From the NCBI GenBank assembly GCA_040752895.1, contig JBFMHN010000005.1:1-64000 (forward strand): a stretch of 64,000 bases of DNA, written 5' to 3'. A program made the translations under genes and the position numbers. Shown here one piece after another: positions 1,937 to 18,377 of the stretch. The notes beneath the pieces are model-generated. The model was given only the letters and a program-made list of their open reading frames with translations. It did no database searches and was not told the DNA's origin. Each line of letters begins with the position of its first letter. Position 1 is the first letter of the stretch. The stretch comes from Pseudomonadota bacterium. GTDB lineage: Bacteria; Pseudomonadota; Alphaproteobacteria; GCA-2746255.

Positions 1937-3304
1937 TTAATAGGCGCAGACGTCGTAGATCGGCTCGATCCGGCCGCCCCATTCCCGGGCATAACGATCG
2001 AGAAGGCGTTCGGCCAGTGTCACGCCGGCGGCCGCTACCTCATCTAAGGGGGTGAGGAAGTGGCTTTCGTCCCTGCCGCACGCATCCAAACGGGCGCGGC
2101 GCTTGAGGCCGGCCCGGGCGATCGCCAAAGCGTCGAGGGCGACCGCCTGCACCGTTCGCCCGTGAATTGCAGCTTTGAGCGCCTGCTTCGGCACTTCCTC
2201 GCGCAACGCGCGCTGCTCCGCGATCCCCCAGCCCTTCACGAGATCGAGCGCGGCGCGCTGGGCCTCGCCGTCATAGAGAAGCCCCACCCAAAAGGCGGGC
2301 AGCGCACACAGGAAAGGTCCCGGACCAGCACCTGCCCCGCGCATCTCGAGGAAATGCTTCAGCCGCACGTCGGGAAAGGCGGTCGTTAGATGGTCCGCCC
2401 AGTCGCCAAGCGTCGGCGACTCCCCCGGCAGGGCGGGAAGCTTGCCGGCGAGAAAGTCGCGGAAGCTTTGCCCGGAGGCGTCGAGATAGTTGCCGTCGCG
2501 GTAGACGAAATACATCGGCACGTCGAGCATATAATCCACATAGCGCTCGAACCCCATGCCGGGATCGAAGACAAAGGGCAGCAGCCCGCAACGGTCGGGG
2601 TCGGTGTGCGCCCAGACGTGGGAGCGGTAGCTCAAATACCCGCTGGGCTTGCCTTCGACGAAGGGGGAGTTTGCAAAGAGCGCCGTCACCACCGGCTGCA
2701 GCGCCATGGAGATGCGGAATTTTTCCACCATGTCCGCTTCGGACCCGAAGTCGAGATTGACCTGCACCGTGCAGGTGCGCAGCATCATGTCGAGCCCGAG
2801 CGCGCCTTTCTTCGGCATGTAGGCGCGCATGATGCGGTAGCGCGCCTTCGGCATCCACGGCATCTCGGCGCGGGACCCTTTCGGCAGGAACCCCAGATTG
2901 AGAAGCCCGAGGTTCAAGGAATCGATCACGGCCCGCAATTGTGCGCGGTGCTCGGCCACCTCGACGCACGTCTCGTGCAGCGTCGTCAGCGGCTCGCCGG
3001 AAAGCTCGAACTGCCCTCCCGGCTCCAGCGTGATGGACCCAAAGCCGGGCTTGGCGAGCGCAATCGGATTGTCCGCCTCCACAACCAACTCCCAGCCGAA
3101 TTGCCGCATGCCCTCGAGAACGGCGCGGATGCCGTCCGGTCCCTCGTAGGGCGCCGGCGTGAGGTCGCGCTTGCGGAACACGAACTTCTCGTGCTCCGTC
3201 CCGATCCGCCAAAGGTGCGGTGGCTTGCAGCCGGCGGCCAGGTCTTCGACGAGTTGCGACTTATGGGTGACGACGACGTCCGAGCCGATCGGTGGTGCGC
3301 TCAT
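1937..3304 (-). CDS. gshA: Glutamate–cysteine ligase, proteobacterial/plant type
   Basis: ATP-dependent joining of L-glutamate and L-cysteine, the first step of glutathione synthesis, in the cytoplasm. The 455-residue protein belongs to the alphaproteobacterial/plant GCL family (often called EgtA/GshA type 2). It has the N-terminal RIGTEHEKF motif, SITLEPGGQFELSG, the TCTVQVNLDFGSE core, and FLEMRGAG near residue 330. The start is ATG at 3304, which overlaps the rsmE stop as ATGA; an upstream in-frame ATG at 3370 would extend deep into rsmE and is less likely. It is probably translated with rsmE from one transcript. Confidence 0.95.
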   Translation of the reverse strand: MSAPPIGSDVVVTHKSQLVEDLAAGCKPPHLWRIGTEHEKFVFRKRDLTPAPYEGPDGIRAVLEGMRQFGWELVVEADNPIALAKPGFGSITLEPGGQFELSGEPLTTLHETCVEVAEHRAQLRAVIDSLNLGLLNLGFLPKGSRAEMPWMPKARYRIMRAYMPKKGALGLDMMLRTCTVQVNLDFGSEADMVEKFRISMALQPVVTALFANSPFVEGKPSGYLSYRSHVWAHTDPDRCGLLPFVFDPGMGFERYVDYMLDVPMYFVYRDGNYLDASGQSFRDFLAGKLPALPGESPTLGDWADHLTTAFPDVRLKHFLEMRGAGAGPGPFLCALPAFWVGLLYDGEAQRAALDLVKGWGIAEQRALREEVPKQALKAAIHGRTVQAVALDALAIARAGLKRRARLDACGRDESHFLTPLDEVAAAGVTLAERLLDRYAREWGGRIEPIYDVCAY

Positions 3305-4086
3305 GGCCTTGGCATCTTTAGGTTTCCTTGTGTCGCGTCTGCGGCCCGAAAGGCCGGCCGCGACTGCCAATCGCCGAGCGCCGCCTGCCAGCAGGTAAGC
3401 GCGGCGATCGCAGCCGTGTCGGCGCGCAGGACGCGGGGGCCCAAACTTGCCGACGTAACAAAGGGAAGCCCGCGAAGGGCGTCAAGCTCATCTTTCGCGA
3501 AGCCCCCTTCCGGACCGGTCAGCAAGGCCCAGGAAGGCGTCGGCTTCGCTTCGCGGAGCGCCTCCAGGATCGGCGGGCCGCTTCCGGTTTCATCGCAAAG
3601 AAGAAGACGGCGCGTTTCCGGCCACCCGGCGAGCGCCTTGAAGAGCGGCTCCGCCGCGCAGAGTTCCGGCACGCAGAGGCGACCCGTTTGTTCGGCCGCC
3701 TCGATCGCCTGGGCGCGCAGCCGTTCAAGGTTGACGCGCCTCACGACCGTCCGTTCCGTCATCACCGGCTTGAGAAGTGCCACGCCAAGCTCGGTCGCCT
3801 TCTCGACCAGCGTGTCGATGCGCCCCCCCTTGATGGGCGCGAACAGCAGCCAAAGGTCGGGCACCTTCGTTTGCGCGCACCTGCGGCGTTCCAGAAGAAC
3901 CGTCGTTCGCTTCTTGGCCAAGGCTTCGATCCTGCCCTCCCACTCGCCGTCGAGGCCGTTGAAAAGGCGGAGACGATCGCCCGGTGCGAGGCGCATGACA
4001 TGACTCAAATAATGGGTTTGCCCAGGTCCCAGTTCGAGGACCCGGTTTTCTTCCAGCCTTTCCTCGACGAACAGGCGGATGGCCAT
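3301..4086 (-). CDS. rsmE: 16S rRNA (uracil-1498-N3)-methyltransferase
   Basis: SAM-dependent methylation of U1498 in helix 44 of 16S rRNA. 261 residues, slightly longer than the usual ~245. It shows the SPOUT knot signatures: VEKATELGV, EQTGRL, the SAM loop LLTGPEGGF and the C-terminal LGPRVLRADTA. The N-terminal PUA-like part has the family feature HYLSHVMRL. The start ATG is divergent from ubiA 56 bp away, and the gene precedes gshA with a 4-base overlap, so the two are likely one operon. Confidence 0.96.
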   Translation of the reverse strand: MAIRLFVEERLEENRVLELGPGQTHYLSHVMRLAPGDRLRLFNGLDGEWEGRIEALAKKRTTVLLERRRCAQTKVPDLWLLFAPIKGGRIDTLVEKATELGVALLKPVMTERTVVRRVNLERLRAQAIEAAEQTGRLCVPELCAAEPLFKALAGWPETRRLLLCDETGSGPPILEALREAKPTPSWALLTGPEGGFAKDELDALRGLPFVTSASLGPRVLRADTAAIAALTCWQAALGDWQSRPAFRAADATQGNLKMPRP

Positions 4087-5069: not shown

Positions 5070-6224
5070 TCAATACGGCACGGCGATGCGCCCGATGCGC
5101 TCGCGGGCGATGATGATCTTCTGGATCTGGGCGGTGCCGTCGCCGATTTCGAGGCCAAGCACGTCGCGCAGGCGCTGCTGGTGGGCCGTCTCCTTCGAAT
5201 AGCCGTAATGGCCGTGCAGCAGCAGGCATTGGTGCAAAATGTCGAAGGAAAGCTTCGGCGCCCACCATTTGCACATCGCGGCTTCCGCCGTGTGCGGCAA
5301 GCCCTGGTCGCACAGCCAAAGCGTCTTGTAGCAAAGCAGCCGGCAGGCCTCGAACAGCGCCTCCGCCTCGGCCAGGGGAAAGGTGACGCCTTCGAATTTC
5401 GCCAATGGCGCGCCGAACGCCTCGCGCTCCTGCACGTAGGCCCACGTCTCGTCGAGGGAGGCGCGCGTAGCACCCAGGCATTGCAGCCCGATGAGCGCGC
5501 GGCTGAAATCGAAGCCCCGCATGATCTGGGAGAAGCCCGCGTTCTCTTCGCCGAGCAGCGCGTCCCCCTCGACCCGAACGTCGTCGAAGAAGAGCGAGCC
5601 GCGCCCGACGATGGCGGAGCCCACGTCCTCGAAGCGGGTGCGGGTGACGCCTTCCCGGTCGAGTTCGACGAGGAAGGCGGAAATCCCCTTGGCGCCCGCC
5701 TCCTCGCGCCCGGTGCGGCCGAAGACGATGGCGATGTCCGCCTGGTCGGCGGCCGAGATCGAGGTCTTCTCGCCGTTCAGGACATAGCCGTTGCCGTCGC
5801 GCCGAACCTTCAGCTTGAGCCTCGCCGCGTCCGAGCCGACGCCGGGTTCTGTTAAGCCGAGCGCGATCAGCGCTTCGCCGCGGGCGATCCTCGGCACCCA
5901 TTTCCCGACCACCCGCGGTTGCCCATGCCGGGCGAGCAAGCCGCCGAGCAGGGCGCCAAGCAGGGGCAGATAGGAAAGGTTGAAGTCGCCGGTGGCAATC
6001 GCCTCCGTGATCAGGCCGCAGGTCACCGCATCGGCCCCCATGCCGCCCAAGTCCTCCGGCAGGTTGGGGGTCACCATGCCGAGCGCCCCCATCTCGCGGA
6101 CAAGCGCGCGGTCGAAACGGCCTTCCTTCTCGCGCCGCATATAGTCCGGCAGCAACCGTTCGCGCGCGAATTTTAGGACGCTTTCACGGAGCGCCTCCTG
6201 TTCCTCGCTAAATCGAAAGTCCAC
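5070..6224 (-). CDS. Acyl-CoA dehydrogenase with Asp at the usual catalytic Glu position (AliB-like?)
   Basis: FAD-dependent alpha,beta-dehydrogenation of an acyl-CoA; 384 residues, typical ACAD length. ACAD signatures are present: GLTEPGVGSDAARL in the FAD/substrate region, the beta domain, and the C-terminal four-helix bundle. At the position where most ACADs have the catalytic Glu (motif YEGT) it reads GDGT, with Asp at residue 362. An Asp base is known from dehydrogenases acting on cyclohexane/cyclohexene-carboxyl-CoA, which fits the nearby badI, but a similar motif may occur in other branches. The start is 19 bp downstream of the second ACAD gene's stop, so the pair is co-transcribed from the promoter near 7471-7499. 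Function by context: ring- or branched-acyl-CoA oxidation, possibly a cyclohexanecarboxyl-CoA dehydrogenase. Exact substrate unknown. Confidence 0.85.
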   Translation of the reverse strand: MDFRFSEEQEALRESVLKFARERLLPDYMRREKEGRFDRALVREMGALGMVTPNLPEDLGGMGADAVTCGLITEAIATGDFNLSYLPLLGALLGGLLARHGQPRVVGKWVPRIARGEALIALGLTEPGVGSDAARLKLKVRRDGNGYVLNGEKTSISAADQADIAIVFGRTGREEAGAKGISAFLVELDREGVTRTRFEDVGSAIVGRGSLFFDDVRVEGDALLGEENAGFSQIMRGFDFSRALIGLQCLGATRASLDETWAYVQEREAFGAPLAKFEGVTFPLAEAEALFEACRLLCYKTLWLCDQGLPHTAEAAMCKWWAPKLSFDILHQCLLLHGHYGYSKETAHQQRLRDVLGLEIGDGTAQIQKIIIARERIGRIAVPY

Positions 6225-6243
6225 CGGTTTCCCCCGATCCCCG

Positions 6244-7398
6244 TCAGCCTTCGGCCTCGCGGATCATGGCCTTGGCGATGACGAGCTGCTGAATCTGCGA
6301 GGTGCCTTCGTAAATGCGGAAGAGCCGCACGTCCCGGTAGAATCGCTCGACCGGGTATTCCGCGATGTAGCCGGAACCGCCGTGAATCTGCACCGCGCGG
6401 TCGGCGACGCGCCCGACCATCTCGCTCGCGAAGTATTTGCAGCAGGCAGCTTCCGTGCTGATCTTTTCGCCGTCATCCCGGCGCCTGGCCGCGTCCAGCA
6501 CCATGGATTTTGCGGCGTACGCCTCGGTCCGGCTGTCGGCCAGCATCGCCTGGACGAGTTGGAAATTGGCAATCCGCTCGCCGAACTGTTTGCGTTCGAT
6601 GGCGTAAGCCAGAGACTCCGCGATCAGGCGCTCGGCGACGCCGACGCAGACGGCGGAGATGTGGATGCGCCCGCGATCGAGCACCTTCATCGCCGTCTTG
6701 AAACCCATTCCTTCCTTGCCCCCGATCAGGGCGGACGCCGGCACCCGGCAATCCTCGAAGATGACGTCGCAGACGTGCGCGCCCTGCTGGCCTATCTTCT
6801 TGTAGGGCTTGCTGATGGAAATGCCCGCCAGATCGCGATCGACGATGAAGGCGGAAACCCCTTTGGCGCCCTTCGTCGCAGGGTCGGTCCGCGCCATCAG
6901 GGTGAAGGCCTTGGCGTGAGGGGCGTTCGTGATGAAGCGCTTCGTCCCGTTGACAACATACACATCGCCGTCACGGATGGCCGTCGTGCGCAGGGAAGCC
7001 GCGTCGGAACCGGAATCCGGTTCGGTCAGCGCGAAAGAGATGATCGTCTCGCCGGAGGCGATCTTGGGAAGGTATTTCCGTTTCTGTTCCTCGGTGCCGT
7101 CCATGACGATGCCTTGCGAACCAATGCCGATATTCGTGCCGATGACGGAGCGGAAGGCGGGCGAGGCGCGGCAGAGCTCGAACAGGACCCGCACTTCTTC
7201 CGTCGTCGTCAAGCCGATGCCGCCATAGGCCTCCGGCACCGTCAGGCCGAACAGGCCAAGCTCACGCATTTCCTCGATGATTTTCGATGGCACGACGTCT
7301 TCTTCCGAGACGCGGGCCTCGGCGGGGATCAACCGCTCGTTGACGAAGCGGTGGATGGTGTCGAGAAACTGTCGAAACGTGTCGGGATCGAGGGCCAC
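6244..7398 (-). CDS. Acyl-CoA dehydrogenase (canonical Glu)
   Basis: 384-residue ACAD, first gene of a two-gene minus-strand operon. Motifs: FALTEPDSGSDAASL near residue 130, NGTKRFITNA near residue 160, the arginine-rich ERKQFGERI, QIHGGSGYIAEYPVER, and the catalytic IYEGTSQIQ with Glu at residue 364. This is the short/medium-chain type. It transfers electrons to ETF. Transcribed away from the OYE-type reductase gene, sharing a 141-bp divergent region that contains the proposed TetR operator. Role inferred from neighbours: one of the two dehydrogenation steps in the alicyclic/branched CoA pathway. Confidence 0.9.
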   Translation of the reverse strand: MALDPDTFRQFLDTIHRFVNERLIPAEARVSEEDVVPSKIIEEMRELGLFGLTVPEAYGGIGLTTTEEVRVLFELCRASPAFRSVIGTNIGIGSQGIVMDGTEEQKRKYLPKIASGETIISFALTEPDSGSDAASLRTTAIRDGDVYVVNGTKRFITNAPHAKAFTLMARTDPATKGAKGVSAFIVDRDLAGISISKPYKKIGQQGAHVCDVIFEDCRVPASALIGGKEGMGFKTAMKVLDRGRIHISAVCVGVAERLIAESLAYAIERKQFGERIANFQLVQAMLADSRTEAYAAKSMVLDAARRRDDGEKISTEAACCKYFASEMVGRVADRAVQIHGGSGYIAEYPVERFYRDVRLFRIYEGTSQIQQLVIAKAMIREAEG

Positions 7399-7470
7399 GG
7401 TTCATTCCTTCAGGTTTTTCGGGCCGGAGTTCTTGGCCACCCGGCGGCGGAGTTTCCGTATGGTGGGAGT

Positions 7471-7499
7471 ATGATAGATTGACAGGGCCTCAATTTCAA
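7471..7499 (-). promoter_or_regulatory. Sigma70-type promoter for the acyl-CoA dehydrogenase pair
   Basis: Read on the minus strand: -35 TTGAAA (complement of 7494-7499), 17-base spacer, -10 TATCAT (complement of 7471-7476). Both boxes match the consensus at 5 of 6 positions. It lies about 75 bp before the ATG at 7398. The proposed operator adjoins its -35 box. Confidence 0.55.
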
Positions 7500-7508
7500 C
7501 CTTACGTT
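7479..7508 (+). promoter_or_regulatory. Probable promoter for the OYE-type reductase gene
   Basis: A perfect -35 TTGACA at 7479-7484, followed after 17-18 bases by a weak -10 (TACGTT around 7503-7508). The -10 lies inside the proposed operator, which would allow repression. It interleaves back to back with the minus-strand promoter. Confidence 0.4.
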
Positions 7509-7517
7509 AGTTAGAAT
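7501..7517 (+). promoter_or_regulatory. Proposed TetR operator, copy 1
   Basis: CTTACGTTAGTTAGAAT. It matches CTAATGCTAGTTAGAAT at 12062-12078 at 14 of 17 positions. Both copies lie in divergent promoter regions of the same catabolic locus, 4.5 kb apart, and both are AT-rich islands in a GC-rich genome. The inferred binder is the TetR protein encoded at 12106. The boundaries are those of the shared block, not measured. Confidence 0.5.
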
Positions 7518-7539
7518 TTAGGAGTTAAATTCTTTCCCG

Positions 7540-9564
7540 ATGCCCTACCCTCACCTGCTCAAACCCCTCGATCTGGGCTTCCGCACCCTCAGGAACCGGG
7601 TCGTCATGGGCTCCATGCATATGCGGCTCGAGGGCGAGGCGAACGGCTTCGCGAAGCTTGCCGCCTTCTATGCCGAACGCGCGCGCGCCGAGGTCGGCCT
7701 CATCGTGAGCGGCGGCTTCGCCCCCAACCCGGAAGGCGTCCTCGGCCCCGGCTGCGGCAAGTTGACGACAGCGGAAGAAGTCGCCGAGCACCGCAAGGTG
7801 ACGGATGCCGTCCATGGGAAAGGCGGCGTCATCTGCCTCCAGATTCTCCACCCCGGCCGCTATTCCCAACTCGACCATGCCTTGGCGCCCTCGGCCATCC
7901 GCTCGCCGATCAGCAAGGTGACGCCGAAGGCGATGACGGAAGAGGACATCGAAAAGACCATCCAGGACTTCGCGGATTGCGCCGTGCTCGCCCGCAAAGC
8001 CGGCTATGACGGGGTCGAGATCATGGGCTCGGAGGGTTACCTCATCAACCAGTTCACGACCCGCCACGTGAACCGCCGCGAGGACCGCTGGGGGGGTGGC
8101 ATCGAAAACCGCATCCGCTTCCCGATCGAGATCATGAAGCGCACGCGCAAAGCGGTCGGCGACGATTTCATCATCATTTACCGGCTTTCCATGATCGACC
8201 TCGTCGAGGACGGCAACACCCAGGAAGAAATCATCTTCCAGGGCAAGGCGGTCGCGGCGGCGGGCGCTACCATCCTCAATTCCGGCATCGGCTGGCACGA
8301 GGCGCGGATTCCGACAATCGCCCACATGGTGCCGCGCGCCGCCTTCGTCGAGGTAACGGCGAACGTCAAGAAAGCGCTTGCGATTCCGGTCGTGGCGACG
8401 AACCGGATCAACACGCCGGAAGTGGCCGAACGCGTTCTGGCGAAGGGATGGGCGGACCTTGTTTCGATGGCCCGCCCCTTCCTCGCCGACCCTGAATTCG
8501 TGCGGAAGGCCAGGGAAGGACGTGCCGACGAAATCAACACCTGCATCGCCTGCAACGAAGCCTGCCTCGACTACATCTTCACCGAACGCCCGGCCTCCTG
8601 CCTCGTCAACCCGCGTGCCGGCCGCGAGCTTGAATTCGAGATCCGTCCGGCCGAGGCAATCAAGAAGATCGCCGTGGTCGGCGCCGGACCGGCCGGCCTG
8701 GCTTTCGCCATCACGGCGGCCGAACGCGGCCACAAGGTGACGCTGTTCGAAGCCGGGTCGGAAATCGGCGGACAACTCAATCTCGCCGCCCGCATTCCCG
8801 GCAAGGAGGAATTCCACGAGACGCTTCGCTATTACCGAAAGATGCTCGCCAAGCACGGCGTGAATGTCCGGCTGAACACGCCGGCCACGTCCGGGGAACT
8901 GCTTTCCGGCAACTACGTCGAGGTGATCCTTTCCACCGGCGTCAAGGCGCGACGGCCGGCCATCTCCGGCATCGATCACCCGATGGTCGTCTCCTACGAA
9001 GACGCCATCTTGCACCCCGGTAAGATCGGCCGGCGCGTCGCCGTCATCGGCGCCGGCGGCATCGGCTTCGACGTTGCCGAATGCCTCTCGACCCCGGAAG
9101 GGCCTTCCGAAAGCCAGAACGTGGACGTCTTTCTGGGCGCATGGGGCGTCGACAGGAAGGTCGCGGCGGCGGGCGGCCTTAGGAAACCCGAGGCGGAGAA
9201 AATTCCGCGCGAGATCTACCTTCTCCAGCGCAAGGCAACACCCCACGGCAAAGGCCTTGGCCGCTCAACCGGCTGGATTCACCGGCTCACGCTGCAAAAG
9301 CGCGGCATCCATATGCTGGGCGGCGTGGCGTACCGCAAGATTGACGATCGCGGCCTGCACATCGCCACCGCCGACGGCGCGGAGAAGGTTCTCGAGGTGG
9401 ACAACGTCGTCCTCTGCGCCGGGCAGGAACCGAATCGCGAACTGCACGGCGCGTTGACGAAGGCGGGCGTTTCCTCGCACCTGATCGGCGGTGCCGAAGA
9501 GGCGCTCGAGCTTGACGCGCGGCGGGCGATCGACCTCGGCACGCGGCTCGCCGCCCGCCTCTAG
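7540..9564 (+). CDS. OYE-family FMN/Fe-S/FAD reductase (2,4-dienoyl-CoA reductase/FadH-like)
   Basis: 674 residues with the three-part architecture of FadH, trimethylamine dehydrogenase and BaiCD-type enzymes. Residues 1-330 are an FMN TIM barrel (LQILHPGRYSQ, YDGVEIMGSEGYLINQF, TRHVNRREDRWGG). The [4Fe-4S] cluster follows (CIACNEAC, then CLVNP). After that come FAD/NAD(P) Rossmann domains (GAGPAGLAFAITAAERGH near residue 385 and VIGAGGIGFDVAE near 505). These enzymes use NAD(P)H to reduce conjugated enoyl or dienoyl thioesters, or run in reverse on steroid-like substrates. ATG at 7540; AGGAG lies about 15 bases upstream, rather far. Divergent from the dehydrogenase pair and under the proposed operator. 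Likely reduces a dienoyl intermediate of the ring/branched acid pathway; exact substrate unknown. Confidence 0.88.
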   Translation: MPYPHLLKPLDLGFRTLRNRVVMGSMHMRLEGEANGFAKLAAFYAERARAEVGLIVSGGFAPNPEGVLGPGCGKLTTAEEVAEHRKVTDAVHGKGGVICLQILHPGRYSQLDHALAPSAIRSPISKVTPKAMTEEDIEKTIQDFADCAVLARKAGYDGVEIMGSEGYLINQFTTRHVNRREDRWGGGIENRIRFPIEIMKRTRKAVGDDFIIIYRLSMIDLVEDGNTQEEIIFQGKAVAAAGATILNSGIGWHEARIPTIAHMVPRAAFVEVTANVKKALAIPVVATNRINTPEVAERVLAKGWADLVSMARPFLADPEFVRKAREGRADEINTCIACNEACLDYIFTERPASCLVNPRAGRELEFEIRPAEAIKKIAVVGAGPAGLAFAITAAERGHKVTLFEAGSEIGGQLNLAARIPGKEEFHETLRYYRKMLAKHGVNVRLNTPATSGELLSGNYVEVILSTGVKARRPAISGIDHPMVVSYEDAILHPGKIGRRVAVIGAGGIGFDVAECLSTPEGPSESQNVDVFLGAWGVDRKVAAAGGLRKPEAEKIPREIYLLQRKATPHGKGLGRSTGWIHRLTLQKRGIHMLGGVAYRKIDDRGLHIATADGAEKVLEVDNVVLCAGQEPNRELHGALTKAGVSSHLIGGAEEALELDARRAIDLGTRLAARL

Positions 9565-9690
9565 GCCCCTTCCCGCAAAGGCAAGGGCAGCGAAAGCGGA
9601 CGGCTGGAGGAGCTCATAGAAAATTAACACAAACGCACAAAAGCCGACGACGCCCAACGGGCCCGATCGGTCAACACATGGAGGGTACCG

Positions 9691-11109
9691 ATGTCACAGG
9701 AAAGAAAAGCCGAATGGCTGAATCGCTATAGGCCCGACGACGAGGGCCTGCGTTTCATGAACCTGGCCTATACCGGCAACTTCACGGACTTGCCGCCGGT
9801 GCCGGACGGAATCCTTGGCGACCGCCTGATGCGTCAACGCATGAAAACGAAGATCATGGAGCCCCTGAGCGAAGCCGACGTGCTGCGCGACGAATTCACG
9901 ATCAACGAAATCAACGATTTCAACAACTACATCGCCTGGTGCCTGTGGGACATGGTCGTGCTGCGGGCGACGGAAGGCGTTTCCGGCATGATCCCGCGGC
10001 AGGAATACGAAATCCTCGCCTTCGCACAGTGCTTTTACCGCTACCCGGAAATCATGCGCGCCATCCATCGCGAGATCGGCACCCGGGGCGTCATGGAAAT
10101 CGGCGCCGGCGCCCGCAAGGAAATCGGCACGAAGATCAACTGCGTGCACGATTTCTGCATCGGCAGCGTCGCCTTCGGGATGGGGCGCTGCGCCCTGCTG
10201 GCCCTGGAGGCGATCGAACCCCGCGACTACGTCGAGGAAAGCGCGACGATGCTGAAATTCATGCAGCGCGTCTTATGGGCAAAACGGCAGGACGGCTATA
10301 TCTTCAACTCCCAGAACCGCTACCGCTGCGCGATTCACGACCAGGCCATCCTCGATAAATTGCTGGCCGAATGCGAAGACGTTCGCGACGACAAGGAAAA
10401 ATACGACGCCTTCGTGGCTTTCAACGCGGCGGCCGAACTGCTGGCCTTCTTCGACCACTACGACTGCCGACTGGGCGCCGGGGACACCGGTCCCTACCCG
10501 TTGCCCGACGGGCGAATCCTGCTTGTTCGCGATCTTTTCGTGAATGAGGAAATCTATCACTGGAGCGACGTCTGCGAAGAGTTGCCTTACTGCTATTCCT
10601 TTGCCATCGTGATCAATCCGACGGCCCTCGGACTCCGGGAGATCCGCGTCAACGATATCGGCACCACCTTCACCAACCCGAAAAACTACATTGCGGGCAT
10701 CGAGGGCGGCGCCATCTTCTTCCGGGAGAAGTGGGATACCCCGATGGGAGAAATACATCCGCTGCCCATCCGGGCGATCGGCCCCCATCTGGAAAAAATC
10801 CGCGGGGCCATCCTCCGGATGTACCAGAAGACGGCCCGGATGTCGCGGCGGGAACTGATCTTGAACGGGATCCACACCTATTTTGTCGGTTTCCTTCTCC
10901 CGCATCTGCGCAAGGCCGGCCTCTATGACTACGCCTGCCGCGAGCTGAACATCTGGGAAATCGACCAGCGCATCGCAAACTACTACTACGAAATCCCGAA
11001 GCGGAATTTCGCCCAGACCGTCATCCCGCAGAAGATTTTTTCGGGCACGGGGTATCTTCCGTTCCCGGATCACGCGGACCCGAAAGCGTCAAAATATTTC
11101 TGGCACTAG
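9691..11109 (+). CDS. Conserved-looking protein of unknown function, 472 residues
   Basis: I do not recognise this family. It is a clear gene: GGAGG sits 8 bases before the ATG, the codon use matches its neighbours, and the frame is open for 472 codons. The product is soluble, with no signal peptide or membrane helix, rich in Tyr, Phe and Trp, and has 11 cysteines (84, 114, 151, 156, 167, 213, 227, 259, 295, 301, 416). Eye-catching segments are KINCVHDFCIGSVAFGMGRC (149-168), AFFDHYDCRLGAGDTGPY (252-269), EEIYHWSDVCEELPYCYSF (286-304) and MSRRELILNGIHTYFVGF (384-401). None is a known nucleotide, flavin or metal motif that I can name. It lies between the OYE-type reductase (126 bp upstream, same strand) and badI (14 bp away, convergent), so it probably belongs to the same pathway. 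It could be an enzyme or a structural/scaffold protein. Confidence 0.8.
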   Translation: MSQERKAEWLNRYRPDDEGLRFMNLAYTGNFTDLPPVPDGILGDRLMRQRMKTKIMEPLSEADVLRDEFTINEINDFNNYIAWCLWDMVVLRATEGVSGMIPRQEYEILAFAQCFYRYPEIMRAIHREIGTRGVMEIGAGARKEIGTKINCVHDFCIGSVAFGMGRCALLALEAIEPRDYVEESATMLKFMQRVLWAKRQDGYIFNSQNRYRCAIHDQAILDKLLAECEDVRDDKEKYDAFVAFNAAAELLAFFDHYDCRLGAGDTGPYPLPDGRILLVRDLFVNEEIYHWSDVCEELPYCYSFAIVINPTALGLREIRVNDIGTTFTNPKNYIAGIEGGAIFFREKWDTPMGEIHPLPIRAIGPHLEKIRGAILRMYQKTARMSRRELILNGIHTYFVGFLLPHLRKAGLYDYACRELNIWEIDQRIANYYYEIPKRNFAQTVIPQKIFSGTGYLPFPDHADPKASKYFWH

Positions 11110-11123
11110 GAGAACGCGCCGCG

Positions 11124-11906
11124 CTACTTCACGAACTTGCGGAAATCCGGCTTCCGTTTTTCGAGGAAGGCATTGACCCCTTCCTGGGATTCCGCGGTGC
11201 CGTAGTAAAGAGCGAGCGCCTGCATGCCCAGACCCGCGATGCCGCCGATATGATCGGTGTCCGCGTTGAGGGAACGCTTCGCAATGGCGAGCGCGGTTGG
11301 GCTCTTGTCGAGGATTTCGGCGCACCACTTGTCCACTTCCTCGTCCAGTTTCTCGTGGAGCACGACGACGTTCACGAGTCCCATGGCGAGCGCTTCCGCT
11401 GCCGTGTAGCGGCGGCAGAGATACCAGATCTCGCGCGCCTTCTTTTCGCCGACGACCCGGGCAAGGTAGGCCGTGCCGTAGCCGGGGTCGACCGAGCCCA
11501 TCTTGGGACCGACCTGGCCGAACTGGGCCTTCTCGGAGGCGATCGTGAGGTCGCAGAGCGTGGCGAGCACGTTGCCGCCGCCGATCGCATAGCCCTGAAC
11601 GCGGGCGATGACCGGCTTCGGCGCGACGCGGATCGCATGCTGCAACGCCTCGATCGGCATGCCGATCATGCCTTTACCCTCGTAGCTCCCTTCATGGCCG
11701 GACTGGTCGCCGCCGGAACAGAAAGACTTCTCGCCGGCGCCGGCCAGCACGATCACGCCCACCGCCTTGTCCCAGCTTGCCTCGGTGAAGGCGTCGAGCA
11801 GTTCTTCGACGGTCGCGGCACGAAAGGCGTTCATCCTCTCGGGCCGGTTGATGGTGATCCGCGCCACCCCACCCTTCACCTCGTAGAGCAAATCCTGGTA
11901 CGTCAT
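11124..11906 (-). CDS. badI: 2-ketocyclohexanecarboxyl-CoA hydrolase (BadI-type ring-opening hydrolase)
   Basis: Crotonase-superfamily protein of 260 residues, the same length as Rhodopseudomonas palustris BadI, which hydrolytically opens 2-ketocyclohexane-1-carboxyl-CoA to pimelyl-CoA. Recalled BadI/MenB signatures are all present: AFRAATVEEL, FCSGGDQSGHEG (62-73), ARVQGYAIGGGNVLATLCDL (101-120), FGQVGPKMGSVDPGYGTAYLAR (129-150), GEKKAREIWYLCRRYTAAEA, and the C-terminal EKRKPDFRKFVK. The resemblance to BadI is stronger than to MenB, which is longer and acts in menaquinone synthesis; no other men gene is here. Transcribed alone, divergently from the TetR gene, from a promoter at 12077-12105 overlapped by the proposed operator. 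It marks the locus as alicyclic-ring catabolism. The real substrate may be a substituted ring. Confidence 0.85.
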   Translation of the reverse strand: MTYQDLLYEVKGGVARITINRPERMNAFRAATVEELLDAFTEASWDKAVGVIVLAGAGEKSFCSGGDQSGHEGSYEGKGMIGMPIEALQHAIRVAPKPVIARVQGYAIGGGNVLATLCDLTIASEKAQFGQVGPKMGSVDPGYGTAYLARVVGEKKAREIWYLCRRYTAAEALAMGLVNVVVLHEKLDEEVDKWCAEILDKSPTALAIAKRSLNADTDHIGGIAGLGMQALALYYGTAESQEGVNAFLEKRKPDFRKFVK

Positions 11907-12105: not shown

Positions 12106-12765
12106 ATGAAAGCCTCGCCCGAGACCGACGACCGGACCAAGCCCAAATCCGTCATCTCGCGCCGCGAAATCCTCGACGCCGCGGCCGCTCTTTTCCGCGC
12201 CAAGGGCTATTACGCGACGACGCTGCGCGACATCGCCTCGGCCGTCGGCATGAAGGCGGGCAGCGTTTACTACCACTTCGATTCGAAGGAACAGATTCTG
12301 GAGGAAGTGCTCGATATCGGCATCCAGGCCGTCTTCGATGCCGTCCGCGACGGCGTCGAAAAGCTGCCGGCCGGCACCCCTTGGCGCGAGCGCTTTTGCG
12401 TCGCCCTCGAGGCCCACCTGACCGCCCTTCTCAAGCTCGGGGATTACACCTCGGCCAATATCCGCGTCTTCGGGCAGGCGCCCAAGTCCATCCAAGAGCG
12501 GCACCTGCGCGTCCGGCGTTCCTACGAGGCGTACTGGAAGGACTTCTATCAACGGGCCAGGACGGCGGGCGAGATCCGCGAAAATCTGAACCTGACGGCG
12601 CTACGTCTGCTCGCTTTCGGAGGGATGAATTGGGCAATCGAATGGTATAAACCTAACAAAGGGGCGATCGAAAAATTAGCGAAGGCATACGCGGACATTC
12701 TTTTCGACGGCGCCCATCCGGTAAAATCCGCCAGCCAGCCCACGCCCAGCTACCGAACGGATTGA
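12106..12765 (+). CDS. TetR/AcrR-family regulator, KstR2-like
   Basis: 219 residues. An N-terminal helix-turn-helix spans about residues 18-65 (REILDAAAALFRAKGYYATT, then LRDIASAVGMKAGSVYYHFDSKEQIL). The ligand-binding C-terminal half ends in FGGMNWAIEWYKPNKGAIEK, a Trp/Tyr-Pro pattern I associate with KstR2, which senses a steroid-ring acyl-CoA. The likely ligand is therefore an acyl-CoA intermediate of this pathway. First gene of the operon, 6 bp before the carboxylase beta gene; it probably represses itself, badI and the genes near 7.5 kb through the TAGTTAGAA elements. Ligand and sites are inferred. Confidence 0.9.
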   Translation: MKASPETDDRTKPKSVISRREILDAAAALFRAKGYYATTLRDIASAVGMKAGSVYYHFDSKEQILEEVLDIGIQAVFDAVRDGVEKLPAGTPWRERFCVALEAHLTALLKLGDYTSANIRVFGQAPKSIQERHLRVRRSYEAYWKDFYQRARTAGEIRENLNLTALRLLAFGGMNWAIEWYKPNKGAIEKLAKAYADILFDGAHPVKSASQPTPSYRTD

Positions 12766-12771
12766 AAGACG

Positions 12772-14373
12772 ATGGCAAGAATCGAATCGAAACTTGATAC
12801 GCGCTCGGAGGAATTCCAGAAGAACCGCGCCGACTACGAAGCCATGTTGCAGACCTTGCGCGAACGGCAGGCCTACGCGGTGGCCGGCGGACGCGACAAG
12901 CAGATCGCGCGCAACCACACCCGCGGCAAGTTCCTGCCCCGCGAACGCATCGACATGCTGGTCGATCCGCATACGGCCTTCCTGGAGTTTTCGACTCTTG
13001 CCGCCTGGGGGAAATACAACAACGCCGCCCAAAGCGCGACCGTCGTCACCGGCATCGGTATCGTTTCCGGCGTCCCGTGCGTGATCATCGCGAACGACCC
13101 CACCGTGAAGGGCGGCACCTTCTTCCCGGAAACGGTGACGAAGCACATCCGCGCCCAAGAAATCGCGCTCCAGCAGAAATTGCCCGTCATCTACCTCGTG
13201 GACAGTGGCGGCGCCTTCCTGCCCCACCAGGACGAAGTGTTCTCGGGCGCCCGGCATTTCGGCCACACCTTCTACTTGCAGGCCCGGCTTTCGGCCCAAG
13301 GGTTGACGCAGCTGGCGGCCGTCTTCGGCGGTTCGACGGCAGGCGGCGCCTACATCCCCGCCCTTGCCGACTATGTCGTCATGGTCAAGGGCCAGGCCCG
13401 CATCCATCTGGGCGGCCCCCAGATCGTGAAGGCCGCCATCAAGGAAATCGTGGATCCGGAGAAACTGGGCGGGGCTGTCATGCACACGCGCATCTCCGGC
13501 GTTTCCGACGACTACGCGGAGAGCGAGCCGGATGCCCTGTCGAAGCTGCGCGTCGCCGTCGCCGGGCTGAACTGGCAATTCAAGACGTACGCCAAGATCA
13601 AGACGCCGAAACCGCCGCTTTACGACGCCGAGGAATTGCTCGGCATCGTGCCGAAAGACCGCAAGCAGGTCTTCAACATGTACGAGGTCATCGCCCGTCT
13701 CGTGGACGACAGCGATTTCGAGGCATTCAAGCCGCATTTCGGCGAAGAGCTGCTGTGCGGGATTTCCTATATCCACGGCTATCCCGTCGGCATCCTCGCG
13801 AACAACGGCATTCTTTTTTCGGAGTGCGCGCTGAAGGGCGCCCACTTCATCGAGAAATGCTGCCAGCGAAACATTCCGCTGCTTTTCCTCCACAACATCA
13901 CCGGCTTCATGGTCGGCTCGAAGGCCGAGGAAGGCGGCATCGCGAAGCACAGCTCGAAGCTGGTCTATGCGGTCGCCAACGCCCGCGTTCCGAAATATTC
14001 CGTCATCCTCGCCAGTTCCTGCGGCGCCGGCAATTACGGCATGTGCGGCGCCGGCCTGATGCCAAACTTCCTTTTCACCTGGCCGACGGGCTACATCGCG
14101 ACGATGTCCGGTGACACCGCCGTCGTCGTCATGACGGAGGTGAAGAAGGCGGGCATCGGCGGCGACAAGGTAACGGAGGAAGAGCTCGCCGAAATCGCCC
14201 GGCAGACGCAGGCGCTTTACGCCGAACAGGCGGACCCCTATCACATCACGGCGCGGCTTTGGGACGACGGCCTGATCGAACCCACGAAGACCCGCGACGT
14301 GCTGGGGCTTTGCCTGTCGCTTGGCGCCACGCTCGAACCGGAGACGGGCTATCACCCCGTCTACCGGATGTAG
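12772..14373 (+). CDS. Biotin-dependent acyl-CoA carboxylase, carboxyltransferase (beta) subunit
   Basis: 533 residues, the size of methylcrotonyl-CoA (MccB/LiuB) and geranyl-CoA (AtuC) carboxylase beta subunits. It transfers CO2 from biotin to the gamma carbon of an alpha,beta-unsaturated, beta-methyl acyl-CoA. Seen: DPTVKGGTFFPETVTKHIRAQ, LVDSGGAFLPHQDEVF, GGSTAGGAYIPA, and the C-terminal GAGNYGMCGAGLMPNFLFTWP. It departs from typical MccB in the acyl-CoA pocket: GGPQIVKAAIKEIVDPEKLGG where MccB usually has GGPPLVKAATGE. That departure hints at a different substrate. The partner alpha subunit is two genes downstream. It is less like PccB or AccD. Confidence 0.9.
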   Translation: MARIESKLDTRSEEFQKNRADYEAMLQTLRERQAYAVAGGRDKQIARNHTRGKFLPRERIDMLVDPHTAFLEFSTLAAWGKYNNAAQSATVVTGIGIVSGVPCVIIANDPTVKGGTFFPETVTKHIRAQEIALQQKLPVIYLVDSGGAFLPHQDEVFSGARHFGHTFYLQARLSAQGLTQLAAVFGGSTAGGAYIPALADYVVMVKGQARIHLGGPQIVKAAIKEIVDPEKLGGAVMHTRISGVSDDYAESEPDALSKLRVAVAGLNWQFKTYAKIKTPKPPLYDAEELLGIVPKDRKQVFNMYEVIARLVDDSDFEAFKPHFGEELLCGISYIHGYPVGILANNGILFSECALKGAHFIEKCCQRNIPLLFLHNITGFMVGSKAEEGGIAKHSSKLVYAVANARVPKYSVILASSCGAGNYGMCGAGLMPNFLFTWPTGYIATMSGDTAVVVMTEVKKAGIGGDKVTEEELAEIARQTQALYAEQADPYHITARLWDDGLIEPTKTRDVLGLCLSLGATLEPETGYHPVYRM

Positions 14374-14396
14374 GCCTTGACCGAAGATCAACGAAC

Positions 14397-15187
14397 ATGA
14401 CTTTCGAAACGATCAGACTGGCGACGGACGACCGAGGCGTTTGCCGGCTGACCCTGGCCCGGCCGGACGTTCACAACGCGATGAACGCCGAGATGATTGC
14501 CGAGTTGCGAAGAGCGGCCGACGCCATCGCGAAGGACGCCGATATCCGCCTCGTCGTGCTGACGGGTGAAGGAAAAAGCTTTTGTGCCGGCGGCGACTTG
14601 CGCTGGATGCAGGGGAACGTCGCGAAGGCGCGCGAGGAACGCGTCCGGGAAGCGGGCGAGCTGGCCGATATGCTCGGCGCGCTCGACCGGCTGCCGAAGC
14701 CCCTCATCGGGCGCGTCAACGGGCCGGCCTATGGCGGCGGCGCCGGCCTGATCGCCGTCTGCGACCTCGCCATCGGCGTTGCCCCGGCGCGTTTCGGTCT
14801 AACCGAGGTGCGGCTCGGCCTGGTGCCGGCAACGATCTCGCCTTACGTCGTTCGGCGGATGGGGCCGGCCAATGCGCGGAAAGTTTTCTTCAGCGGGCGG
14901 CTCTTTTCGGCCGAAGAGGCGAAGGCGCTTGGCCTGCTCAGCGCCGTCGTCGCGCCCGACCAGCTCGACGCCGCGGTGGAGGCGGAGGTCGCGGCCCATC
15001 TCGAGGCCGCGCCGGGCGCCGTCGCCGCGACGAAGCGGCTTGTCCATTACGTCGCTTCCCACGGCGCCGATGAAAACCGCGCCCATACGCTCGCCGCGCT
15101 TGCCGACGCCTGGGAAACCGCGGAAGGCAAGGAAGGCATCCAGACCTTCCTCGAAAAGAAAACCCCGTGGTGGAGGAAAGCCAAATC

Positions 15188-15191
<4 letters not shown>
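14397..15191 (+). CDS. Enoyl-CoA hydratase (methylglutaconyl/isohexenylglutaconyl-CoA hydratase-like)
   Basis: 264-residue crotonase. Motifs: RPDVHNAMNAEM, SFCAGGDLRWMQ (oxyanion hole), GRVNGPAYGGGAGLIAVCDLAI, and GLTEVRLGLVPATISPYVVRRMG with the Glu needed for hydration. The DLRWM pattern is shared with LiuC/AtuE-type hydratases that act right after methylcrotonyl- or geranyl-CoA carboxylation, and the position between the two carboxylase subunits is the same as in liu/atu operons. The start is ATG at 14397; a longer reading reaching into the upstream gene lacks support. The stop overlaps the next start as ATGA. Confidence 0.88.
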
Positions 15192-17203
<2,012 letters not shown>

Positions 17204-17225
17204 CCGGCCTGCGGGACATGGCGAA

Positions 17226-18377
17226 ATGAAATCGATCTATCAGACGGAAGAGCTTGAGCTTTTCCGGGAGCAGATCCGCCGCTTCGTCCAGGAAGAGGTC
17301 GAACCCCATGGCGAGAAATGGGAAGAGGAAGGCAAGGTCCCCCGCGACGTCCTCCGCAAGATGGGGCGTTTGGGCTTTTTCGGCATCACCTACCCGGAAA
17401 AGTACGGCGGCGCCGGCCTCAACACGCTGGCGACCGCCGTTTTCGCCGAAGAGCTTGGCCGTTCGACCTTCGGCGGCTTCACCGCCACCGTCCTCGTCCA
17501 TACGGACATGGGCTCGCCCCATCTCGCGAACGCCGGCTCGGAGGTCCAGCTTGAGAAGTACATGCCGCGAATCACGAAGGGCGAGATCATCACCGCAATC
17601 GCGGTGACGGAACCGGACGCCGGCTCGGACGTCGCCGGCATCAAGACCCGCGCTATGCGCGACGGGAATTTCTACGTGCTGAACGGCACCAAGATGTTCA
17701 TCACGAACGGCGTGCACGGAGACCTTTTCTTCACGGCGGCGCGGACGGACCCCCGCGCGAAAGGCTCGCGCGGTCTTTCGATGTTCATCGTCGAGAAGGG
17801 CACGCCCGGATTTCGGGTCGGCCGTCCGCTGAAGAAGCAGGGCTGGCTCTGTTCCGACACCGCCGAGCTCATCTTCGAGGACTGCCGCGTGCCGGCGGAG
17901 AATCTGCTGGGCGAGGAAAACAAGGGCTTCTACGCCGTCATGAAAAATTTCCAGAACGAACGCACCGTGCTCGGCGCCATGTGCATCGGCTCCTGCGACA
18001 AGGCGCTGGAGCTTACCCTCGACTACGTGACGACGCGGCGCGCCTTCGGCGGCGTGCTGTTCGACCTTCAGGCGATCCGGCAACGGTTGGCGGCGCTTGC
18101 CTCCAAGGTCGAGGCGGGGCGCCAGCTCGTCTACCACGCCGCCTGGCTCGATGCGCAAGGGAGCGATTGCGTGAAGGAAGTTTCGATGGTGAAGGCCTTC
18201 TGCGGCGAGCTCGTGAACGAGGTCATGTACGCCTGCCAGCAGTTCCATGGCGGCGCCGGCTATTTGCGCGAAACGCCGATCGAACGCATGGTTCGCGACG
18301 CCCGCATCCTTTCGATCGGCGGCGGGGCGACGGAAGTGATGCTTGAAGAAGTCGCCAAGCGACTGGTCGCGAATTAG
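17226..18377 (+). CDS. Acyl-CoA dehydrogenase of the isovaleryl/long-chain catalytic type
   Basis: 383-residue ACAD. AVTEPDAGSDVAGI (127-139), NGTKMFITNG and FHGGAGYLRETPIER are typical. The usual YEGT site reads GGGA (Gly at residue 366), so the standard catalytic Glu is absent. Instead Glu245 in NFQNERTVLGA lines up with the helix-G base used by isovaleryl-CoA and long-chain acyl-CoA dehydrogenases, which act on branched substrates. With the carboxylase operon this suggests an AtuD/LiuA-like step forming a beta-methyl enoyl-CoA. Starts 22 bp after the carboxylase alpha stop. Confidence 0.9.
   Translation: MKSIYQTEELELFREQIRRFVQEEVEPHGEKWEEEGKVPRDVLRKMGRLGFFGITYPEKYGGAGLNTLATAVFAEELGRSTFGGFTATVLVHTDMGSPHLANAGSEVQLEKYMPRITKGEIITAIAVTEPDAGSDVAGIKTRAMRDGNFYVLNGTKMFITNGVHGDLFFTAARTDPRAKGSRGLSMFIVEKGTPGFRVGRPLKKQGWLCSDTAELIFEDCRVPAENLLGEENKGFYAVMKNFQNERTVLGAMCIGSCDKALELTLDYVTTRRAFGGVLFDLQAIRQRLAALASKVEAGRQLVYHAAWLDAQGSDCVKEVSMVKAFCGELVNEVMYACQQFHGGAGYLRETPIERMVRDARILSIGGGATEVMLEEVAKRLVAN

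Follow-up and report, generated by a model that had tools for sequence, protein, structure and literature searches.

A putative acceptor subunit of a split small-molecule dikinase, encoded as an orphan in the ring-acid locus of an alphaproteobacterium

Three parts share the phosphorylation of phenols in phenylphosphate synthase, CreHI and HpeHI: an ATP-grasp part, a swivelling domain that carries a histidine, and a substrate domain (PMC12167813, PMC9618137, PMC6114531). In HpeHI (a 4-hydroxyacetophenone/acetovanillone dikinase), CreHI and PpsAB, the ATP-grasp component is separate and the swivel forms the C-terminal part of one chain with the substrate domain; rifampin phosphotransferase (RPH) follows the same three-part logic of ATP-grasp, swivel histidine and substrate binding. 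The system considered here, of which the 472-residue protein encoded at 9691..11109 (plus strand) is probably an acceptor (substrate) subunit, likewise combines a separate ATP-grasp component, a histidine swivel and a substrate domain in a catabolic gene setting, and by analogy small-molecule phosphorylation would be its likely reaction. Unlike the phenol kinases, however, it encodes the swivel separately or in a swivel-first fusion, uses an ATP-grasp protein similar to pyruvate phosphate dikinase (PPDK) that has a swivel of its own, includes an additional small protein (P192), and possesses a substrate domain in which no resemblance to proxies of theirs was detected; RPH, in turn, is a single chain rather than a split system. 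No published description of the acceptor family or of a dikinase-linked microcompartment was found in the open literature searched.

The gene lies in the window, a 64,000-nucleotide stretch of an alphaproteobacterial genome (G000), where it begins with an ATG at 9691, preceded by a few bases by the ribosome-binding site GGAGGG (9680..9690, plus strand), and ends with a stop codon at 11107-11109. Its coding status is beyond chance because full-length homologues exist at 60-80% identity and because comparison with the orthologue in the related genome G003 (80% identity) gives a dN of 0.124 and a dS of 1.23, a dN/dS of about 0.10 with dS near saturation, which places the gene, judged from these substitutions, under strong purifying selection. 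A sequence-only reading had described a real, strongly supported gene of no nameable family and without an export signal, a description that is borne out: the N-terminus appears hydrophilic by eye, and searches with the protein returned no family in Pfam at E<=1, none in NCBIfam at E<=0.001 and no PDB sequence at E<=10, while a 20-sequence family profile produced only a chance match in the PDB (E 0.76), and PHROGs gave a chance hit only. The same reading's proposal of an unnamed pathway enzyme or partner of a new type holds insofar as the gene is real and unnamed, and its product is probably part of an unusual catabolic enzyme.

Relatives that share 59-67% identity are found in Actinomycetota and in Alpha-, Beta- and Gammaproteobacteria; within the window's own class, matches were obtained in only 6 of 289 sampled genomes (that of the window and five others). 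One homologue (L029) comes from a MAG contig that bears the name Klebsiella pneumoniae, probably through mis-binning. The lead to function came from distant Rhodococcus relatives annotated as 'PEP-utilizing enzyme'. A survey of all homologue loci by ORF calling and reference BLAST, with Pfam for domains, revealed a stand-alone PEP-utilizer swivel of about 138 aa directly upstream of the homologue at all 28 loci outside the genus, separated by 13-80 bp in the 12 cases measured. The gene order is a DUF7064/7065 protein, a HAD hydrolase (at most loci), the swivel, the acceptor, P192 and a PPDK-like protein of about 835 aa, and annotated plasmid records agree with it. P192 is a winged-helix-like protein of about 192-195 aa without a Pfam match that usually follows the acceptor, with the PPDK-like gene after it, on contigs of sufficient length; either of the two is absent mainly at contig ends, the exceptions being L025 and L027. 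Fusions repeat this arrangement within single chains: a 793-aa protein of Rhodococcus opacus comprises the swivel (18-105), the acceptor (178-602) and P192 (607-788), a 577-aa protein of R. pyridinivorans combines the swivel with the acceptor, and G030 encodes acceptor and P192 as one chain of 717 aa. Taken together, fusion and adjacency make physical cooperation with a phosphohistidine swivel the simplest reading, and the role of acceptor subunit in a split dikinase for small molecules the most likely function; this function class is regarded as probable. The catalytic histidine context is kept both in the stand-alone swivels (GAPESHLGI) and in the swivels of the PPDK-like proteins (GG.(T/S)SHA), so that a two-histidine relay may be possible.

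This persistent association with swivel domains, by linkage and by fusion, also bears on the idea of a novel ring-acid enzyme that contains metal or flavin and has no relation to phosphotransfer, which the position of the gene in a ring-acid locus and its many cysteines might otherwise favor. The protein is rich in aromatic residues (F 5.3%, Y 5.3%, W 1.7%) and does contain the 11 cysteines counted earlier (84, 114, 151, 156, 167, 213, 228, 259, 295, 301 and 416), but the clustered segments that had been singled out do not form a conserved site: only C167, C213 and C295 are invariant across the 20-sequence family, C84 and C114 are confined to the orthologous pair of the window and G003, and the wider superfamily keeps none of them. 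Since no cysteine motif is conserved beyond the close family, the clusters do not represent a conserved metal site, and a cysteine-ligated metal cluster was rejected. Nothing suggests a bound metal or flavin, and such an enzyme, already largely refuted, is very hard to credit.

Comparison with stand-ins for the substrate domains of known dikinases yielded no detectable relationship. The acceptor profile did not match two proxies of the HpeH/RPH kind, the RPH-like one included, under conditions in which distant acceptor relatives gave E 3e-18 as a positive control; the HpeH-like proxies had been sought via NF006153, which returned mainly PEP synthases. AlphaFold models of the full protein (pLDDT 74.7) and of residues 200-472 (pLDDT 62.3) found no significant solved match with Foldseek and VIA-align, a result in which the absence of RPH from the lists proves nothing.

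Outside the genus, the split-dikinase system is frequently associated with microcompartments. BMC shell genes occur at about 20 of the 28 homologue loci, together with genes for aldehyde dehydrogenase, EutJ/FtsA-like and malate/lactate dehydrogenase proteins, and PF00936 was present in five of eight relatives tested, although none was found in the four genomes of the genus (G000-G003). At L031, L034, L013, L020, L032 and about 15 further loci, the split-dikinase operon adjoins a BMC locus whose content includes BMC-H, a fused BMC, EutN, EutJ-like, AldDH, MDH-like and Zn-ADH genes, a PucR-type regulator, HAD and DUF7064/7065. The main texts of two BMC surveys make no mention of a dikinase. In M. 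petroleiphilum PM1 (L079), the PPDK-like gene directly adjoins BMC shell genes and is about 24 kb from the swivel, acceptor and P192 genes, so that parts of the dikinase can be encoded at a distance.

Such separation is relevant to the window copy, as no swivel or ATP-grasp dikinase gene occurs within the window; in the family at large the ATP-grasp component is encoded with the acceptor, whereas the window copy would have access to one only in trans. Contig C1 of the same genome carries an operon (L005) with a swivel (3118-3528; PF00391 at 4e-9), an acceptor paralogue 66% identical to the window protein, P192 and a PPDK-like gene (5809-8316). The genome has four PF00391 sites, namely the stand-alone swivel and the split PPDK-like protein of C1 and frames of 986 aa (PPDK-like) and 789 aa, and P192 is present in a single copy. 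The C1 partner resembles PPDK over residues 6-625, its last 210 or so residues lack a Pfam match and, in contrast to pyruvate phosphate dikinase and PEP synthase, the PEP/pyruvate-binding C-terminal domain PF02896 was not detected in it; the acceptor is likewise unrelated to those enzymes by sequence search. Two side observations concern this operon. Directly after the PPDK-like gene (8377-8681) lies an internally deleted pseudogene of a third acceptor, in which an N-terminal portion broken by stops and frameshifts runs straight into the final codons (SKYFW). Adjoining the operon (8771-10012) is a gene, conserved in G003, for a 413-aa protein in which a methane-monooxygenase gamma-chain domain (PF02964) is fused to an EthD domain.

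Among the four related genomes on which co-occurrence can be judged, G000 and G003 each have one stand-alone swivel, one P192, one split PPDK-like gene and both acceptors, and G001 and G002 (91% and 88% complete, respectively) have no acceptor, stand-alone swivel, P192 or split PPDK-like gene. In the tree, the window protein and G003_C2 form one clade (100/100, stem 0.34), and G000_C1 and G003_C11 a second (99/99); the separation of the two acceptors thus predates the divergence of G000 and G003. That the window copy is a decaying duplicate was rejected in view of its dN/dS of about 0.10 and a divergence equal to that of the C1 pair. With G003_C2 it shares substitutions at about 20 family-invariant or near-invariant positions (Q23M, N84C, W155F, D309N, Y398F, M401F and others), which would be consistent with a changed substrate pocket. 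The long stem and these diagnostic changes, along with the orphan location, could also mean that the window copy no longer belongs to the dikinase and now acts as a stand-alone binding protein or as a ring-acid enzyme built on the old pocket, perhaps as a partner of the OYE-type reductase that it adjoins in both G000 and G003 in differing orders. This departure is rather unlikely, however, because the protein retains all superfamily-conserved residues (R166, R260, G267, P268, Y269, R280, W291 and others), its dN/dS is low, and acceptors of the window type occur only in genomes with the engine.

The surroundings of the gene do not resemble those of its homologues. The OYE/FadH-type flavin reductase gene (7540..9564, plus strand; present in all four genus members) shares the strand of the acceptor gene and ends 126 bp before it, and the stretch between them contains no terminator-like site. 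On the minus strand lie an acyl-CoA dehydrogenase (6244..7398), a cyclohexanecarboxyl-CoA (CHC-CoA) dehydrogenase-like gene (5070..6224; TIGR03207, 565 bits, just below the cut-off of 575) and, on the other side, a BadI-like 2-ketocyclohexanecarboxyl-CoA hydrolase (11124..11906; TIGR03210, 458 bits, just below 468). The acceptor follows the OYE gene in G000 and precedes it in G003, in both cases beside the CHC-CoA dehydrogenase pair; in G003, badI is about 14 kb away. The suspected tie to ring-acid degradation is supported in part. BadI and its pathway are genomic neighbors of the acceptor in this genus, but G001 and G002 retain the OYE and badI genes without it, the two standing close together in G001 (L063), which makes the acceptor an accessory of the ring-acid locus rather than a core step. 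Outside the genus, the expectation that homologues would sit near badI or carboxylase genes failed, since there is no general linkage to badI and they lie instead in the split-dikinase operon, often beside microcompartment genes. A link between the acceptor and the ring-acid pathway is a plausible proposal.

Further downstream, sequence searches point to a methylcrotonyl-CoA carboxylase-type operon of TetR regulator, carboxyltransferase, crotonase, biotin carboxylase and acyl-CoA dehydrogenase genes (12106..18377, plus strand), which resembles a liu-type (leucine) operon, is syntenic in G001 and G003, and is probably not part of the acceptor's system. These genes touch on the proposal that no stable phosphate ester is formed and that the dikinase activates its substrate for C-C bond formation, as in the prodigiosin ligase PigC, or for carboxylation, as in the Hpe pathway, where phosphorylation precedes a biotin carboxylase (PMC9618137). 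The PPDK-like parts do also match PigC/RedH profiles, and the relatives in G030 and R. pyridinivorans adjoin biotin carboxylase genes; the window carboxyltransferase, however, scores higher against methylcrotonyl-CoA carboxylase (584 bits) than against geranyl-CoA carboxylase (423 bits). As the carboxyltransferase-to-dehydrogenase genes at 12.7-18.4 kb resemble a leucine operon, they provide no argument for ketone carboxylation, and use of the neighboring biotin carboxylase for that purpose was rejected with the carboxyltransferase being MCC-beta-like. Activation of this kind is accordingly given a low probability. In their own right, the distant relatives at L042 and L037, with PPDK-like and biotin-carboxylase genes (in G030 also a PYC_OADA-type gene), suggest a phosphorylation-then-carboxylation pathway.

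The explanation we favor, with reasonable though incomplete confidence, takes the window protein to be the acceptor subunit in a split phosphotransferase of the dikinase type, a second head that probably uses the C1 engine; such use in trans is likely. Family membership, gene context, fusion, the single engine, co-occurrence and purifying selection are read from the sequences, and the phosphotransfer activity, the use of the C1 engine and the substrate are inferred. The PPDK-like ATP-grasp protein would phosphorylate the histidine of the swivelling domain, which would then dock on the acceptor subunit, where a small organic substrate with a hydroxyl (or enol) group would take the phosphate, for an overall reaction, by analogy to phenylphosphate synthase and HpeHI, of ATP + ROH + H2O -> RO-P + AMP + Pi. 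The window gene would thus represent a second, diverged acceptor that has come to lie in a ring-acid locus and probably borrows the single C1 engine. Its substrate may differ from that of the first acceptor and could be alicyclic or enone-type, handled together with the neighboring OYE reductase; that it is a ring compound is a guess from gene location. Whether regarded as a whole the system constitutes a new class of small-molecule dikinases with exchangeable heads, marked by an acceptor not detectably related to the rifampin/phenol-kinase domain, by one engine with two acceptors, and by a role as a hitherto undescribed BMC signature enzyme in most relatives, is a more tentative proposition, somewhat short of an even chance. 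These observations provide a testable function for a family named in neither Pfam nor NCBIfam, extend small-molecule dikinases beyond the layout of the phenol kinases, and suggest a modular use of one engine with several heads, while a type of microcompartment without a known aldehyde source gains a candidate for its signature enzyme.
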